From Dehalococcoidales bacterium (GTDB lineage Bacteria; Chloroflexota; Dehalococcoidia; Dehalococcoidales; UBA5627), in contig JAQTUQ010000001.1 in assembly GCA_028707255.1 (NCBI GenBank), positions 44,414 through 108,413 on the forward strand: 64,000 nucleotides of DNA. Direction: 5' to 3'. Below are positions 1-13,584 of the stretch, one piece after another (the first letter of the stretch is position 1; each line of letters begins with the position of its first letter). The notes beneath the pieces were generated by a model that searched no databases, was not told the DNA's origin, and saw only the letters and a list, made by a program, of their open reading frames with translations. The translations under genes were made by a program, and so were the position numbers.

Positions 1-2851
1 TACCGACCGTAACGTTGGGAATGGGCAGGGTTAAACCGAGGCTCACCCGGGTGGGAGTAATATCCAGATTCATCCCGGAGCCCAGTTTTTCCATAAAGTT
101 TTTCAGCGGATTGACGAATTCCAGCTGCCCTGCAAATTCGGTTTCATCGATATCGACATCCACATCGGGCTTCTTGCCGGTTTTTGCCGTAAACACTATT
201 TTTGAAAAATGGAACCTCAGGAAAAGGTAGCTTCCCGTTCCGATCATATTAATCCAGAAATTACGCAGGTCGCCGGTGATATCATACGTTGGTTCTGCCG
301 GCGGGTCGATAGGAGTAACAAAGATACCTTTTACCTCCAGGCGGGTTGAGCCGGAAGGCTCGAAGATATGCAGCGGGTCGCCCTTGACGTCCGGATACCA
401 GTCCAGGCGCGTTTCCACCGCCTGTGGAGGAAGACTGTTGTTTCCCCCGGGATAAACAACGTTGTTTGTAATGCGGGGAGTCTTACGTCCGTCACCGAGA
501 TTGGCAGCCTGAATTATTTCCGCCAGTAATATTCCGCCCAGTATCTTGGCGCCGTTGAAAAATTGATTCGGGTCGAAATCGGTGGGGATGGTATCTATCG
601 GCCCGGCTACTACTCCCTTATTGCGTGAAAGTCCGCTGATCTGCATATTGGGGGTAACTAACGCTCCGGACTTATCACCCGACCCGTCGAAACTCAAATC
701 GACCTTTGCCTTCAGTTTTGCCCAGATATAAGCCGGGTTGGCAGTCGCTTGAAAGCCGTTGGCCAGGTATTGCGGATGCAGCTCGATTACCACCGGGTCT
801 GACAGGGCTTTTCCCGATGCCTGTTCCGCGCCCGGCAGGCGCACTTCGGCTTCCTGCCAGGTGGGGAAGAAGCGCGGCTGGTCATCCGGCAAGCTGACAC
901 TGGATGGAACCGGCAGGGTTGCGCCCAGGGTTATCGTTTTCACCTCTGCGCTGGTATCACCATGTTTTCCGTCAGGGATTCCCTCCTTAATGGAGCTTGG
1001 TGCAAAGGCTACCTTTTGCCCCTGCAGAGACCTCTGCCGCCTGTTTTCATTGGCTGTAGAGCTGTTATAGGCATTAACGGCAGGCTGCAGGAACACACTC
1101 ACATCCTCCGGCTGCTGCAGGGTGGAAGATATGAAAGCCAGCGGGCTGGTGAATTCCGATATCTGACCATCGCTGTCTGTTGCTACCATGTGGAAAAGGT
1201 AGTCCTTGCCGGCTACCCTGGGCCAGAAAGCTTTTTGTCCCTGCCCCACCAGGTCATAGGCTTCCCCTGTCATGGTGGGGTCATCCAGTGATGGCGTAAC
1301 CAGAGTGGTTATGCGTACACTGTTAAAAGGCCATTGCCGCCCCTGGTTTGGTTGTGAAGCGTGGGCGGGATATGTTTTTAACGGCTGTCTTACAACGATA
1401 AAAAAACGCTGGCGCAGGTAGGCAGCCGTATTGCCTGTCAGGCTACTTCCGGCCGGTACCGGTTGTACTTTGCGTTCCGTAACCTTTACCAAAGTGGCGC
1501 CGTGCCCTGTAGGGAATAAAAATCCCTTATAAACCACACGTACGTAGCTGTCGCGCGCCATGGCAGCTAAATGCCGCCATTCGACAATATCGAGGTCCTC
1601 CCCGGCCGGCGCATTCGGCCAGAGGCCGCGGGTATTCATCCATGCACCCAGGCTGCTTAACATGAAGCGCTCCACTTTCACAGGCGCCGGATTATAGTAT
1701 TGAGAGCTGCTCGCCATTGTCATATTGTAATCCGAAGTCAGCCTCACCAGCTGCCAGCGGTCGTTATTGGTAAGCGACATTCTGAACGGGTTCATATCGT
1801 TGGCATTAGGGGTCACCTCGCGGTCAAAACCGGGTGTCCAGATAGCGCGCAGGGTGCGGTAGAACGTCTCTTTTTCATCCACTATCCACTGCGGAGTACT
1901 ACCCGTACTCTGTGTTCTTACACCCATTCGGGTATGCCAGAGCTCGGTGCGATTATTGTGTGTAACAGGGCTTCCTGAGTGAGCCCAGCCGGCATGGCTG
2001 TTCGGCGATACTATCAACTGCCAGGGAACCTCCAGGGCAGTCTCCCACCACTTGGGTTCTGTGGGCATCTTTCCATAATCCGGTTCATCTGCCGGCAGAG
2101 CTGTCGGAGCGACGCTCAGTTCATATTTCTGCCAGGCAAGCAGTTCATCCAGCGTAAAGGGAATCGGCGCTGAACCGGGAGGAATCCTGAAAACCAGCCT
2201 GCTTCCCCCGGATAATCTGGCGGCTACCGAACCGGGCTGCGCTGGGGTTTCCGAACCTCCGGGTGGGTTGGGGGCATTGGAGGGGTCTTCCGTATCATCG
2301 CTGAATTCCTCTGCCGTTTCAAGAAAAGCCTGCTCCGCGATATTTTGCGGCAGGAAGTCATTCCCATGAGCGAAATTAACTACAATGTAAGCATCTTTGG
2401 TAGTAGACGCCCGTTCCAGATTGGATCCATTCAAATTCAGATGATAAAAATCGAACCTTAACATCAGCATATCCTGCTTGCGTAAAACGGAAGCGCTGAA
2501 ACTGGGATTTGCCGTTGTCGTAGTATCTTCCTTCCCTGTACAGGACTCCAGCGGATTTTTGCAGGTAGTAATGGCTGTTTCGGGAATAACACTGTTTATA
2601 AACAGCACCGAACCGCCGATGGCGGCCAGTTTCAGAAGGGTTCTCCTTGTAATAGGATTGTCGCCGAGCGCATCCGACATTTCCAGGAGCTGTTGTATAG
2701 CTGTCGCTTCTTCCGGAGGAGGTAAATCCGTTTTAGACGAAGAAGTAATGTCGTTCTCTTTATAGCGGCTTCTCTTCGTTTTTGTATTATCCGCGGGTTT
2801 ATAGTTTGAGGAGGGTTTATCACTTTGAGAGTCTGGATTATTTTCTTTCAT
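1..2851 (-). CDS. Large putative Tat-exported protein, C-terminus beyond window
   Basis: Not in the ORF track because it has no stop inside the window. Reading the minus strand from ATG at 2851 (AGGAGGT six bases upstream) gives about 950 codons with no stop to base 1; I checked the frame at both ends and twice in the middle. Residues 1-65 are hydrophilic and Ser/Lys/Asp rich. They are followed by ITRRTLLKLAAIGGSVLF (about 67-84), a twin-arginine motif with a hydrophobic core. The rest looks like a soluble, beta-rich extracytoplasmic protein, with segments such as GWAHSGSPV and RTELWHTRMG. I do not recognise the family. Export by the tatABC cluster at 11-13.6 kb is inferred. Confidence 0.85.
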   Translation of the reverse strand, partial: MKENNPDSQSDKPSSNYKPADNTKTKRSRYKENDITSSSKTDLPPPEEATAIQQLLEMSDALGDNPITRRTLLKLAAIGGSVLFINSVIPETAITTCKNPLESCTGKEDTTTTANPSFSASVLRKQDMLMLRFDFYHLNLNGSNLERASTTKDAYIVVNFAHGNDFLPQNIAEQAFLETAEEFSDDTEDPSNAPNPPGGSETPAQPGSVAARLSGGSRLVFRIPPGSAPIPFTLDELLAWQKYELSVAPTALPADEPDYGKMPTEPKWWETALEVPWQLIVSPNSHAGWAHSGSPVTHNNRTELWHTRMGVRTQSTGSTPQWIVDEKETFYRTLRAIWTPGFDREVTPNANDMNPFRMSLTNNDRWQLVRLTSDYNMTMASSSQYYNPAPVKVERFMLSSLGAWMNTRGLWPNAPAGEDLDIVEWRHLAAMARDSYVRVVYKGFLFPTGHGATLVKVTERKVQPVPAGSSLTGNTAAYLRQRFFIVVRQPLKTYPAHASQPNQGRQWPFNSVRITTLVTPSLDDPTMTGEAYDLVGQGQKAFWPRVAGKDYLFHMVATDSDGQISEFTSPLAFISSTLQQPEDVSVFLQPAVNAYNSSTANENRRQRSLQGQKVAFAPSSIKEGIPDGKHGDTSAEVKTITLGATLPVPSSVSLPDDQPRFFPTWQEAEVRLPGAEQASGKALSDPVVIELHPQYLANGFQATANPAYIWAKLKAKVDLSFDGSGDKSGALVTPNMQISGLSRNKGVVAGPIDTIPTDFDPNQFFNGAKILGGILLAEIIQAANLGDGRKTPRITNNVVYPGGNNSLPPQAVETRLDWYPDVKGDPLHIFEPSGSTRLEVKGIFVTPIDPPAEPTYDITGDLRNFWINMIGTGSYLFLRFHFSKIVFTAKTGKKPDVDVDIDETEFAGQLEFVNPLKNFMEKLGSGMNLDITPTRVSLGLTLPIPNVTVG

Positions 2852-3322
2852 TGGCAGACCTCCTGATAGTACAAATGGGGTTTTAGTACCTGATTACCAT
2901 ATGAAACAAGCCATAGGAACAAACGCTTTTTCAAAAAAGGAGTGGCAAGATATACGTAGTTGAAAAAACAGCTGCAAGATACAGAGAGGCGTCCGTGTGA
3001 ACGGAGTGCGAAAAATCCATCCGTCATACTCCCTCCTCTGAACCTGATATCGGAACTATACCGGCTCCGTCCGGGAAGACCGATTATAGTCATGAAGGGT
3101 ATTAAATATTATGTATATATATAATATTAGTTAACCGTTATGTTCATGTCAATAGGTATTCAGATAACGATAGTATTGGATTTTATATAATTTTTTGATG
3201 CTATTGCGATTAAGAATCCACGCAGAGAGTTAAAAAACCAATAGTTTTTTCTGTTTTTGCCAAATTATTATTTCCAAATACATTCAAATTAAAAAATATT
3301 CTCTTTTTTCCACGAAAAACTA
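2852..3322. other. AT-rich intergenic region, no gene seen
   Basis: This stretch separates the divergent Tat-substrate gene and the NSS transporter. It is strongly AT rich between about 3100 and 3310, with a run of alternating TA near 3110-3130. The 81-residue minus ORF at 2848-3093 has atypical composition and overlaps the Tat-substrate ribosome-binding site, so I do not call it. Promoters for both flanking genes probably lie here and just to the right. Confidence 0.5.
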
Positions 3323-3527: not shown

Positions 3528-5042
3528 ATGGAAGTAAAAAGAGAAAGATGGGGCAGTAGACCGCTGTTTATTATGGCAGCGATCGGTTCAGCCATAGGGC
3601 TGGGCAATGTTTGGCGCTTTCCCTACATGTCATATGAATTTGGTGGAGGCGCCTTTTTATTTGCCTGGATTGTCGGGCTTGTAATACTGGGTATCCCCTG
3701 GTTAATGATGGAATTCGGTATGGGTAAGTACTTCCAGAAGGGAGCTCCGGGAGTATTTGCAGGCATCGGTAAAAAGTGGGAATGGGTAGGCTGGTGGCCT
3801 GTTTTCGTCGCCTTTTTAATTGTCTCCTATTATACGGTGGTAATGGCCTGGTCTTTAAGATACGCCATCGATTCATTCACTATGGCATGGGGAAAGGGAC
3901 AGGGCGCCGCCGAAAGCACAGGCGGTTATTTCTTTAATAACATTTTACAGATATCGTCAGGGCCTACCGATTTTGGTGCACAGGTATGGCTCACTCTTGC
4001 TTTGTTAGCTGTTATATGGGTAATAATGTTCTTTATAATGTTTAAGGGAGCCAGAGTTATCGGTAAAGTGGTAGTATGGACGGTGGCCATCCCCTGGGCT
4101 TTACTGGTCATTCTTTTCATTCGCGGCATTACCCTTCCCGGCGCAGTCGATGGACTTAACTACTATTTATCGACAGATTTCAGCGTATTAGCCGATGGAG
4201 GCGTATGGTTTGCTGCTTTCAGCCAGGTTGCCTTCTCATTGTCAGTAGGTATGGCCGGTATGTACGCCTATGGTAGCTTCATGGCTAAGAAATCAGATGT
4301 AAACAACAATGCCGCTATCACCACTTTCGCCGATAGTGCCACAGCATTCTTTGCCGGTTTTGCCGTATTCAGCATAGTCGGATTTTTAATGCATGCATTA
4401 TCAGTCTCCGCTACGGATGTTGCCGCTTCGGGTCTGGGTCTGGCATTTATAACATTCCCGGCAGCCATATCTATGATGCCGGCGATGAACGGTTTGATTG
4501 GCGTTATCTTCTTCTTCTGCCTGTTCTTCCTGGGGTTGGATTCGGCTTTCTTCCTGGCACACGGCGGTGTTGCCGCTCCGCTCAGGGACAAACTAGGTTG
4601 GAGCCTGAAAAAATCCACTTTAATTGTCTGTATTGCCGGTTTTCTGCTGGGGCTTCTATTCACCACCCAAGCCGGTTTATACTGGCTGGATATGGTTGAC
4701 AGAGCCGTATCCTTCTACGGACTGCTGATTACCGGTATTATTTCCTGTATTCTTGTAGGCTGGGTTTTCGGAGCCAGGAAACTCAGGGAATATCTCAATG
4801 CCACTTCGGATTTCAAATTCGGCGCCTGGTGGGATTGGGTAATCAAGCTGGTAATTCCGATTGCAATGGCATTCGTTGTTATCTACGGCGGTTTTATGAC
4901 TGATATTCCCAATGCCTATGGTGACTATCAGGTTGGTCCGTTTAACGGGTCTCATATCTTATGGCTCATACTCGGTATAACTCTCATTTTGAGTTTTGTA
5001 CTCGGCCGTATGAAAACCAAAGAGCCCAAGGAGGGAGAATAA
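3528..5042 (+). CDS. Neurotransmitter:sodium symporter (NSS/SNF) family transporter
   Basis: A 504-residue polytopic membrane protein, the usual length for bacterial NSS proteins, with about 11-12 hydrophobic segments. The first transmembrane segment carries the family signature around GSAIGLGNVWRFPY (residues about 20-33), the unwound Na+/substrate-binding region in LeuT-like proteins. Family knowledge: these are Na+-coupled importers of amino acids or related amines; the substrate cannot be read from sequence. The start follows AAAGGAAGG at a rather long distance. It is followed with a one-base overlap (TAATG) by the small subunit MetS, the arrangement of the MetP/MetS methionine/alanine transporters. 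Confidence 0.92.
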   Translation: MEVKRERWGSRPLFIMAAIGSAIGLGNVWRFPYMSYEFGGGAFLFAWIVGLVILGIPWLMMEFGMGKYFQKGAPGVFAGIGKKWEWVGWWPVFVAFLIVSYYTVVMAWSLRYAIDSFTMAWGKGQGAAESTGGYFFNNILQISSGPTDFGAQVWLTLALLAVIWVIMFFIMFKGARVIGKVVVWTVAIPWALLVILFIRGITLPGAVDGLNYYLSTDFSVLADGGVWFAAFSQVAFSLSVGMAGMYAYGSFMAKKSDVNNNAAITTFADSATAFFAGFAVFSIVGFLMHALSVSATDVAASGLGLAFITFPAAISMMPAMNGLIGVIFFFCLFFLGLDSAFFLAHGGVAAPLRDKLGWSLKKSTLIVCIAGFLLGLLFTTQAGLYWLDMVDRAVSFYGLLITGIISCILVGWVFGARKLREYLNATSDFKFGAWWDWVIKLVIPIAMAFVVIYGGFMTDIPNAYGDYQVGPFNGSHILWLILGITLILSFVLGRMKTKEPKEGE

Positions 5043-11299: not shown

Positions 11300-12073
11300 T
11301 TATATATTTTCGGCAGTTTCTTCCGACTGTTTGACTGCCCGTTTTTTATAGACGAATTTGGAAAGCAGAATGCTTAATTCCAGTAGAATAATCAACGGAA
11401 TGGCGATAATGGACTGATTAATGGGATCCATCGTCGGTGTAATCAGCGCCGATAATACAAATGCCAGTACAAACCACAGTTTACGCTTATTTGCCAGCCA
11501 TTGCGGAGTAACCAATCCCATCCGCGCCAGTATCATGATAATAAGAGGAGTTTCAAAAACCAAACCGACATATAAAATCATACGAGTAACTACACTTATA
11601 TATTCGCTAAGTCTCCAGACATTTTCAGCAAGATCCGACATAAAATTGCCGAGGAATCCCATTGCCGGCGGTAGTGCTACAAAATAGGCAAAAAAGACAC
11701 CTGTAGCGAATAATATGGTTACAAAAGGCAAAAGTTGGAATATTGTTTTTTTCTCTTTAGAGGTAAGCCCGGGAGCAATAAAAGCAATTACCTGGTAAAC
11801 CAAAAACGGCATAGCAATAATGAAGCCGCCTGCCAGCGCAACCTTGAAATAAACGGCTATGTTTTCGGTCGGAGTTATGGCCTGAAAGTCAACACTTGAA
11901 GCCGGACGCTTTAAAATTTCTATCAGGGTCTTGGTAAATATAAATGAGATAGCGGTGGTGATAACCATGGCGATAACCGATCTGGCAATACGGTCCCGCA
12001 GTTCTACCAGGTGCCCTTTAATGGGCATCCTTTTGCCTGTAATCGGGTCTCTTCTTATTTCGGTTGTTACCAC
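11300..12073 (-). CDS. tatC: Sec-independent protein translocase TatC
   Basis: 257 residues with six hydrophobic segments. The family N-terminal signature is present as KGHLVELRDRIARS (about 19-32), as is the ending of the first periplasmic loop. TatC is the receptor for twin-arginine signal peptides in the inner membrane. It starts four bases after the tatB-like stop, in a tat cluster of tatA (13300), tatA (12907), tatB-like and tatC, all on the minus strand. Confidence 0.95.
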   Translation of the reverse strand: MVTTEIRRDPITGKRMPIKGHLVELRDRIARSVIAMVITTAISFIFTKTLIEILKRPASSVDFQAITPTENIAVYFKVALAGGFIIAMPFLVYQVIAFIAPGLTSKEKKTIFQLLPFVTILFATGVFFAYFVALPPAMGFLGNFMSDLAENVWRLSEYISVVTRMILYVGLVFETPLIIMILARMGLVTPQWLANKRKLWFVLAFVLSALITPTMDPINQSIIAIPLIILLELSILLSKFVYKKRAVKQSEETAENI

Positions 12074-12077
12074 TGTC

Positions 12078-12755
12078 TTATTTTCCTGCTTCTTCTATCT
12101 CTGTCTTTTTATCGGGTGAAGCTGCTTCCTCAACAGGCGCCGACGATAAATTATCCTGTAGAGGATTACTTTCTAAGGGATTAATAATGTCTTCCGGAAT
12201 ATCAAAGGTCTTTTTGCCTTCGGTTTTTTGTACAGCGGAAGTTCTGGCTTTTTTAGCCGGGGCAGCGTTATCTATATTCAAAGACTTATTTAATTTCTCA
12301 ACGCCCTCATTAAGTGCCATACTTACTTCTTGAGCCCCTGTGGCAAGCGGATCTTTTATGTCACGGGCTGTCGTATCGAGCTCAAGGGATTCTTTTTCCA
12401 GCATGGCTGAAAGCTCAGCGGTTTCATCATCCATAGTCTTTTGAACATCATTTATCTCATTATCTATCGTCTTGGCAATTTCATCGGCTTCCATATCCAG
12501 TGCATTTTTAATCTTCAGAGATTCTTCGTCAAGCGAACCCTTAAGCCCCTGAGCAGTGTTCTTTAAATCATCGAAATCATCTTCCAGATCGAGGGATTTG
12601 GTCACTTCTCCCGTAAAATTTTGAGTCATCTTTCTGAGGTCGCGTACCATCTTGCCGAATTTACGCGCATATTCGGGCAGCTTCTCAGGCCCGACTACGA
12701 GAAGAGCGACCACAAGTATAACCAGTATTTCTAAAAAACCAAGGTCTAAACCCAT
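12078..12755 (-). CDS. tatB: TatB-like twin-arginine translocase subunit with long acidic tail
   Basis: 225 residues, beginning with a TatA/B transmembrane helix (FLEILVILVVALLVVGPEKLPEYARKFG region) followed by the amphipathic helix. Residues about 35-225 form a long, acidic, heptad-like region rich in Asp/Glu/Lys and ending in a Pro/Ser-rich stretch. The GPEKLPE motif is TatB-like. The tail is longer than in most TatB proteins. It is adjacent to tatC, the usual tatB place. Confidence 0.85.
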   Translation of the reverse strand: MGLDLGFLEILVILVVALLVVGPEKLPEYARKFGKMVRDLRKMTQNFTGEVTKSLDLEDDFDDLKNTAQGLKGSLDEESLKIKNALDMEADEIAKTIDNEINDVQKTMDDETAELSAMLEKESLELDTTARDIKDPLATGAQEVSMALNEGVEKLNKSLNIDNAAPAKKARTSAVQKTEGKKTFDIPEDIINPLESNPLQDNLSSAPVEEAASPDKKTEIEEAGK

Positions 12756-12906
12756 TATTCTATCTCATTTTCAGCTTCGTTTTTTATAAAAGAACCGACT
12801 GACATCTCAATGGAATATAAATTGAATAACAAGACATACTGCCGATAACGGAGAATGACATTCCAAGCCGTTTATCAATATATGAGCCATAGAAGCCAAT
12901 TAACAA

Positions 12907-13107
12907 TCATCCCCGACTTTTTTTCGATTTCTTTGTAGTTTTAGTTGCTGGTGTTTCCTTCAACTCTTCGACATTGCCCTGTTTATTCTTTTTAAAATCT
13001 CTCTTCCATTTACCGAACATCTCAAAGATCTGAGGCAGTTTCCCCGCCCCAAATATAATGAAGATAACAAGTAATATAACTATTATTTCCAAAGGACCGA
13101 ATTTCAA
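12907..13107 (-). CDS. tatA: Sec-independent translocase TatA/E-type subunit
   Basis: 66 residues. One N-terminal transmembrane helix (LEIIVILLVIFIIFGAGKLP) is followed by an amphipathic helix containing FGKWKRDFKK and a Lys-rich tail. The FGxGKLP hinge is diagnostic of TatA/TatE pore-forming subunits. It is separated from the tatB-like gene by about 150 bases and from the second tatA by about 190 bases. Confidence 0.9.
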   Translation of the reverse strand: MKFGPLEIIVILLVIFIIFGAGKLPQIFEMFGKWKRDFKKNKQGNVEELKETPATKTTKKSKKSRG

Positions 13108-13195
13108 CGGTATATCACCTCCGTTAAAATAAACTCAGAAAGTAATATCAATTCTTCAAGCCGGGAACACAGATAATCATATCTCTTTTGTAAAT

Positions 13196-13226
13196 ATCCC
13201 CTTCCTGCAAATTAAGGGAAGGGGAT
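13196..13226. promoter_or_regulatory. Intergenic hairpin between the two tatA genes
   Basis: A 10-bp perfect inverted repeat (ATCCCCTTCC / GGAAGGGGAT) with an 11-base loop and no clear T-tract. It may act as an mRNA processing or stability element that sets the relative level of the two TatA proteins, or as a weak terminator. Confidence 0.45.
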
Positions 13227-13299
13227 AAGGTAAACAACTATTCTTAAGAGAAAGATGAATTCAGTACAGGGTGATTTATGTTGTTCCCAGAGAAATCCG

Positions 13300-13584
13300 C
13301 TATGCCTGTTGCGCTGGAGTTTCTTCTGCTTTAGGTTTGGCTTCCCCTTCTGATTCGCTTACGGTTGTCTGAGTCTCTTTCTTTTTTGTAGTCTTTTTCT
13401 TGGCCTTTTTCTTTGTTTTAGCTTCTGCGGCCAGTGCTTCCTCGTCTTCGCCTTTTGTACCCTTCTTGAAAGCATTGATACTCTTGCCTAAAGCTGCGCC
13501 TACCTGCGGGAGCTTGCCTACACCAAAGACAATCAGAATGATCACCAGAATAAGCCCGATTTCCAATGGACCCGGTTTTATCAT
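13300..13584 (-). CDS. tatA: Second TatA/E-type subunit with Lys-rich tail
   Basis: 94 residues. The transmembrane part (LEIGLILVIILIVFGVGKLP) and the amphipathic helix (LGKSINAFKKG) are typical TatA. The tail has runs of Lys, Thr and Glu, ending EETPAQQA. It is the first gene of the tat cluster on the minus strand, with GGGGGGTTT upstream of the ATG. Two TatA-type genes suggest a high pore-subunit demand or subunit specialisation. Confidence 0.9.
   Translation of the reverse strand: MIKPGPLEIGLILVIILIVFGVGKLPQVGAALGKSINAFKKGTKGEDEEALAAEAKTKKKAKKKTTKKKETQTTVSESEGEAKPKAEETPAQQA

Follow-up and report, generated by a model that had tools for sequence, protein, structure and literature searches.

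An undescribed, patchily distributed pair of large proteins with a predicted twin-arginine signal on one partner

Introduction

The left edge of the stretch of Dehalococcoidales DNA studied here raises the question of what kind of protein is encoded by a very large gene with an apparent twin-arginine (Tat) signal, and whether that protein leaves the cytoplasm. The window, by which we mean the whole 64,000-nt stretch of DNA analysed (G000:C46:44414-108413), cuts into this gene, here called A, which can be followed leftward in its own genome. The original prediction had described a 2851-base open frame on the minus strand, running from a start with a strong Shine–Dalgarno sequence to the window edge, and had read its product as a large Tat-signal protein.

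Results

The reading frame was confirmed, with 950 codons open from the ATG at 2851 down to the window edge. Extending the contig leftward, as the original prediction had proposed, closes gene A as an uninterrupted ORF of 1,173 amino acids (128 kDa; L002:9744-13265, minus strand), with no premature stop and no frameshift. The features at its start are as follows.

1–2851, minus strand: gene A, first 950 of its 1,173 codons, with ~670 nt more, including the stop codon, left of the window
2859–2864, minus strand: Shine–Dalgarno sequence AGGAGG of gene A
3124–3152, minus strand: promoter-like TTGACA-N17-TAATAT, ~270 nt upstream of gene A

The AGGAGG at 2864–2859 bears out the claim of a strong Shine–Dalgarno sequence, and all six close homologues have it ahead of the same start. 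Compared with a genome of the same genus (G003, 81% protein identity), gene A has a dN/dS of 0.10 in its core and of ~0.22 in the N-terminal arm, where dS is near saturation. The conserved AGGAGG and the arm dN/dS together argue that the long-arm start is correct. In five of the six close homologues the nonamer CTATTGACA (window 3147–3155, minus strand) is present no more than 400 nt upstream of A, with three occurrences in G021, and a search of the long leader against Rfam gave no riboswitch match. As a side observation, gene A of Rhizobium ruizarguesonis TP23 (L056:11797-16120) is split over two frames, by either a frameshift or a sequencing error.

Left of the window edge, a second large gene, B, starts 23 nt after the A stop and encodes 1,342 amino acids (150 kDa). 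B directly follows A at every locus where the contig continues, with a spacing of <45 nt in 13 of 16 pairs and an overlap in one. The two proteins diverge in step (r = 0.94 between A and B pairwise divergence over 16 pairs; 0 of 5,000 permutations as high), and B is about as conserved as A over its full length. No export signal was seen in B, as none of 18 sequences has an RR motif or a strongly hydrophobic N-terminus. That A and B are paralogues was rejected by profile comparison (probability 0.1%), and no third gene common to the loci was found downstream of B.

The original prediction recognised no family for A, and our searches agree: neither A nor B matched Pfam, NCBIfam, PHROGs, PADLOC or PDB sequences, and the A and B profiles and wider members gave no family either, with isolated weak or low-complexity matches in single members. 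No cofactor-binding domain was found in A-B, and Pfam gave no toxin or nuclease domain. A viral origin was rejected, as phage records and viral contigs held no match to the pair. Within the open-access papers searched, no description of it was found. A is present in 5 of 100 related genomes at 63–82% identity, and five full matches, its own included, occur among 393 genomes of the class Dehalococcoidia. Conservation in this class had been named as support for the prediction, and it stands in part: the homologues that were sought do share the N-terminus of A, but the family is sparse in the class and also occurs in other phyla. Further A-B copies are scattered sporadically across Chloroflexota, and plasmid copies were found in Streptomyces, Rhizobium, Sinorhizobium, Agrobacterium, Cupriavidus, Diaphorobacter and Ruegeria, with isolated fragments in Paraburkholderia, where A is broken into pieces, and in Bradyrhizobium, which has part of B. 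A-B is an undescribed, co-inherited and patchily distributed protein pair present in at least three phyla.

The N-terminal region of A carries the features on which predicted export depends.

2657–2851, minus strand: hydrophilic N-terminal arm, residues 1–65; variable, with 19% identity over residues 1–47 and 27% over residues 48–65
2624–2656, minus strand: twin-arginine motif PITRRTLLKLA, residues 66–76; 69% identity among six homologues, with P, T, R and R invariant
2567–2638, minus strand: hydrophobic h-region of the predicted Tat signal, residues 72–95, followed by C97 and C104

The motif had been placed at about residue 67 as ITRRTLLK, which is correct: it reads PITRRTLLK, with the two arginines at residues 69–70 and TRRTLLK at 68–74. 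The unusually long hydrophilic arm of ~65 residues is likewise as described. The h-region has a mean hydropathy of 1.88 over 13 uncharged residues. Mean pairwise identity among the six close homologues is 34% in the segment after the RR motif and 68–77% in the body of the protein, and the conservation of the motif amid such variable flanks suggests that it is under selection. Including the arm, the signal of A would take up ~90 residues, which is outside the range of 23–60 residues of validated Pseudomonas Tat signals (PMC6085387).

Across the wider family, a Tat-like signal was found at the start of A in 13 of 25 proteins by a fixed-rule script and in 17 of 25 by eye; among other ORFs the count was 3 of ~210 (~1.4%). 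These signals occur in three phyla: in Chloroflexota, in a Streptomyces and in each of the five alphaproteobacterial giants examined (described below). The conserved motif and this enrichment support the reading of A as a large Tat-signal protein, as a prediction. By eye, 8 of the 25 A proteins lack any Tat signal (e.g. Cupriavidus, Diaphorobacter and G460) yet are paired with the same B; export is therefore neither a fixed trait of the family nor essential to it. Inspection of the alignment by eye gave no evident AxA cleavage site after the signal in Dehalococcoidia; likely sites, also by eye, are present in Sinorhizobium meliloti LMB1 (ALA), Ruegeria (ALA) and A. vitis (ASA). Lipoprotein anchoring of A was rejected, since no consistent lipobox precedes the first conserved cysteine (by eye). 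C97 and C104 (window 2540–2563, minus strand) are present in all six close homologues, and a disulfide between them is possible.

At the other end of the protein, structure prediction was informative for one region. For the whole of A, AlphaFold2 gave an unusable model from six sequences (pLDDT 28.8); for the C-terminal 374 residues, with 17 sequences, it reached a pLDDT of 73 and predicted a long antiparallel beta meander.

1–454, minus strand: start of the predicted C-terminal amphipathic beta-meander domain, residues 800–950 of ~800–1118 (AlphaFold2 pLDDT 73), continuing beyond the left edge of the window

Hydrophobic and polar residues fall on opposite faces of the predicted strands, with a strong asymmetry (3.16 vs 1.23 in shuffled strands; 0 of 2,000 as high). 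Foldseek of this model against the PDB and a viral library gave no match at E ≤ 0.001, with a TM-score of at most ~0.3; the weak PDB matches are mostly outer-membrane barrels, with one lipid transfer protein among them. The predicted C-terminal sheet probably offers a hydrophobic face on which a ligand could bind or B could pack. That a hydrophobic ligand sits on it is speculative, and we offer it as a guess. The end of A, beyond a variable linker, is a tail W..Y..(A/S)FA that is conserved in 17 of 17 sequences and is perhaps a docking peptide. Longer relatives of A have a large insertion just before the meander, helix-like as judged by its sequence.

The window also contains a tat cluster, and the original prediction had placed four such genes 9 kb from A. 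The cluster is real, spanning 11300–13584.

3528–5042: sodium symporter gene flanking A
11300–12073: TatC
12078–12755: TatA/B family
12907–13107: second TatA-like ORF, identified by eye
13300–13584: TatA

The suggestion that this cluster marks a link to A did not hold. Two sister genomes without A (G001 and G005) keep TatC and the symporter gene together on one contig, ~7 kb apart, and A carriers outside the genus have TatC on another contig. We therefore rejected a functional link between A and the nearby cluster, on the synteny of the A-less relatives. TatC is present in six of six A carriers among 101 relatives vs 61 of 101 overall (chance ~0.044), a co-occurrence that counts as weak support for Tat export of A because the assemblies are incomplete.

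Beyond B lies a convergent tRNA-Arg(CCT) gene (L002:5531-5606), and the slot between it and the symporter gene is variable in the genus. In the genome studied here it is occupied by A-B, in G005 by a type IIG restriction-modification gene together with a PLD-helicase and a pRiA4 ORF-3 gene, and in G002 by different small cargo. In G003, A-B again neighbours a symporter gene of this kind, and B is followed by a type III restriction-like gene. GC content is ~54% in A-B vs ~47% in the flank. The slot variation, the GC contrast and the presence of tat in A-less relatives point to A-B having been acquired as mobile cargo, with its proximity to tat incidental. Past the tRNA gene, a histidine kinase with a solute-binding sensor domain (L002:3445-5214) adjoins two response regulator-type genes; it is conserved in G005.

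The largest members of the family are alphaproteobacterial (L058, L059, L077, L078 and L079). Their A proteins have 2,277–3,311 residues (246–363 kDa) with long N-terminal extensions, and their B partners have masses of 171–209 kDa. In S. meliloti LMB1, A (331 kDa) and B (192 kDa) sum to 523 kDa, compared with 278 kDa for the pair in the genome studied here, and an apparently helical insertion of ~900 residues precedes the C-terminal domain of A. Directly downstream of B on plasmid pC of LMB1 is a TatA-family gene of 55 residues (PF02416; L058:22892-23059); the other four giant loci have no tatA after B. In A. vitis, a dpdE gene lies shortly after the A-B pair.

Discussion

Two large proteins, co-inherited in at least three phyla, thus belong to no named family. 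Since they are always paired, co-diverge and carry a Tat signal on A only, we tentatively propose, with a probability of roughly 0.45, that A and B are subunits of one large complex exported in folded form by Tat, with B hitchhiking on the signal of A. Translation from a single operon would be followed by folding and assembly of A and B in the cytoplasm, and the Tat translocase, which is encoded in the genome, would then move the folded A-B complex across the cytoplasmic membrane. In Dehalococcoidia, A shows no evident cleavage site and is probably kept in place by its signal segment, which would leave the complex on the outer face of the membrane; these bacteria are described as monoderms, without an outer membrane (PMC10284905). 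Hydrogenases and formate dehydrogenases are established cases of hitchhiker export by Tat (PMC10924467). Like those periplasmic NiFe hydrogenases and formate dehydrogenases, A and B come from adjacent genes and have an RR signal on one subunit and a partner that is signal-less; unlike them, A-B has no recognisable cofactor domain, both subunits are very large, a 65-residue arm precedes the signal and some members are without a signal. The ~90-residue signal also speaks against the proposal, but the strongest objections to it are the signal-less members and the size of the cargo, 278 kDa here and >500 kDa in rhizobia.

B need not travel with A. It may instead remain in the cytoplasm as a dedicated folding or proofreading partner of an A that is exported alone, much as small Tat chaperones fold and proofread redox enzymes. 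B is signal-less in 18 of 18 sequences and always encoded directly after A, as such a role would have it; but in this genome B exceeds A in size and is conserved to about the same degree along its whole length, unlike the known Tat chaperones, which are small, and it is kept also where A has no Tat signal. We regard this arrangement as unlikely. The signal-less members speak for another view, in which the RR segment does not function as a Tat signal and A-B is an intracellular complex, with the N-terminal helix a weak anchor at most, or a relic. The unusual length of the arm and the want of a clear cleavage site after it in Dehalococcoidia fit this view; however, the RR motif is 69% identical between neighbours at 19–34%, and the alphaproteobacterial giants start with typical Tat signals, several of them with likely AxA sites, which makes it quite unlikely in our judgement.

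The patchy distribution and the C-terminal sheet each suggest a further alternative. A-B could be mobile accessory cargo directed against competitors or phages, e.g. an exported toxin-like complex, given its sporadic occurrence, its many plasmid copies, its GC contrast with the flank (~54% vs ~47%), and the genes found in the slot or near the pair, namely the type IIG restriction-modification gene and PLD-helicase in the tRNA-Arg slot of G005, the type III restriction-like gene that follows B in G003 and dpdE shortly after the pair in A. vitis. Set against this are the lack of any PADLOC match, of a toxin or nuclease domain in Pfam and of a variable C-terminal domain, short-form A ending instead in the conserved W..Y..AFA tail, and we find such a role improbable. 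A membrane-inserted beta barrel, which would make A a pore or porin-like, is highly improbable. The predicted strands are strongly amphipathic and, as in outer-membrane barrels, form a meander with weak local matches mostly to such barrels, but they reach 19 residues, longer than typical transmembrane strands. The matches also stay short of E ≤ 0.001 and of a TM-score above ~0.3 (~0.25 globally), and the host class is described as monoderm (PMC10284905). AsmA and the repeating beta-groove lipid-transfer proteins resemble the predicted sheet of A in their long amphipathic antiparallel strands with one hydrophobic face; A differs in that neither Pfam nor, at a significant level, Foldseek matched it, and its sheet may be closed or open.

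If export of a folded hitchhiker complex applies throughout the family, the alphaproteobacterial members would extend it furthest. Like large Tat substrates of other bacteria, A has an S/T-R-R-x-F/L-L motif and an h-region, but the alphaproteobacterial proteins are single chains of up to 363 kDa, and the upper size of Tat cargo is quoted as ~150 kDa in a review (PMC6708511). That the pair is a widespread, undescribed two-protein machine, and that in alphaproteobacteria A of 246–363 kDa and B of 171–209 kDa cross the membrane folded by Tat, in one case with a dedicated TatA, is a doubtful idea. Were the giants exported, they would exceed the accepted size of Tat cargo severalfold. If the pair leaves the cytoplasm as a complex, it would form a hitchhiker system well past the size range studied for Tat. 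With likely cleavage sites and one neighbouring tatA, the rhizobial members make the Tat size limit directly testable.

Some loci show additional features. Small proteins with Sec-like signals, mutually dissimilar, are encoded after B in three giant loci (L078:21138-21518, L079:23636-23971 and L059:23696-24682), and two genomes each carry two diverged A-B pairs (L042 and L043 in G168; L047 and L048 in G148).
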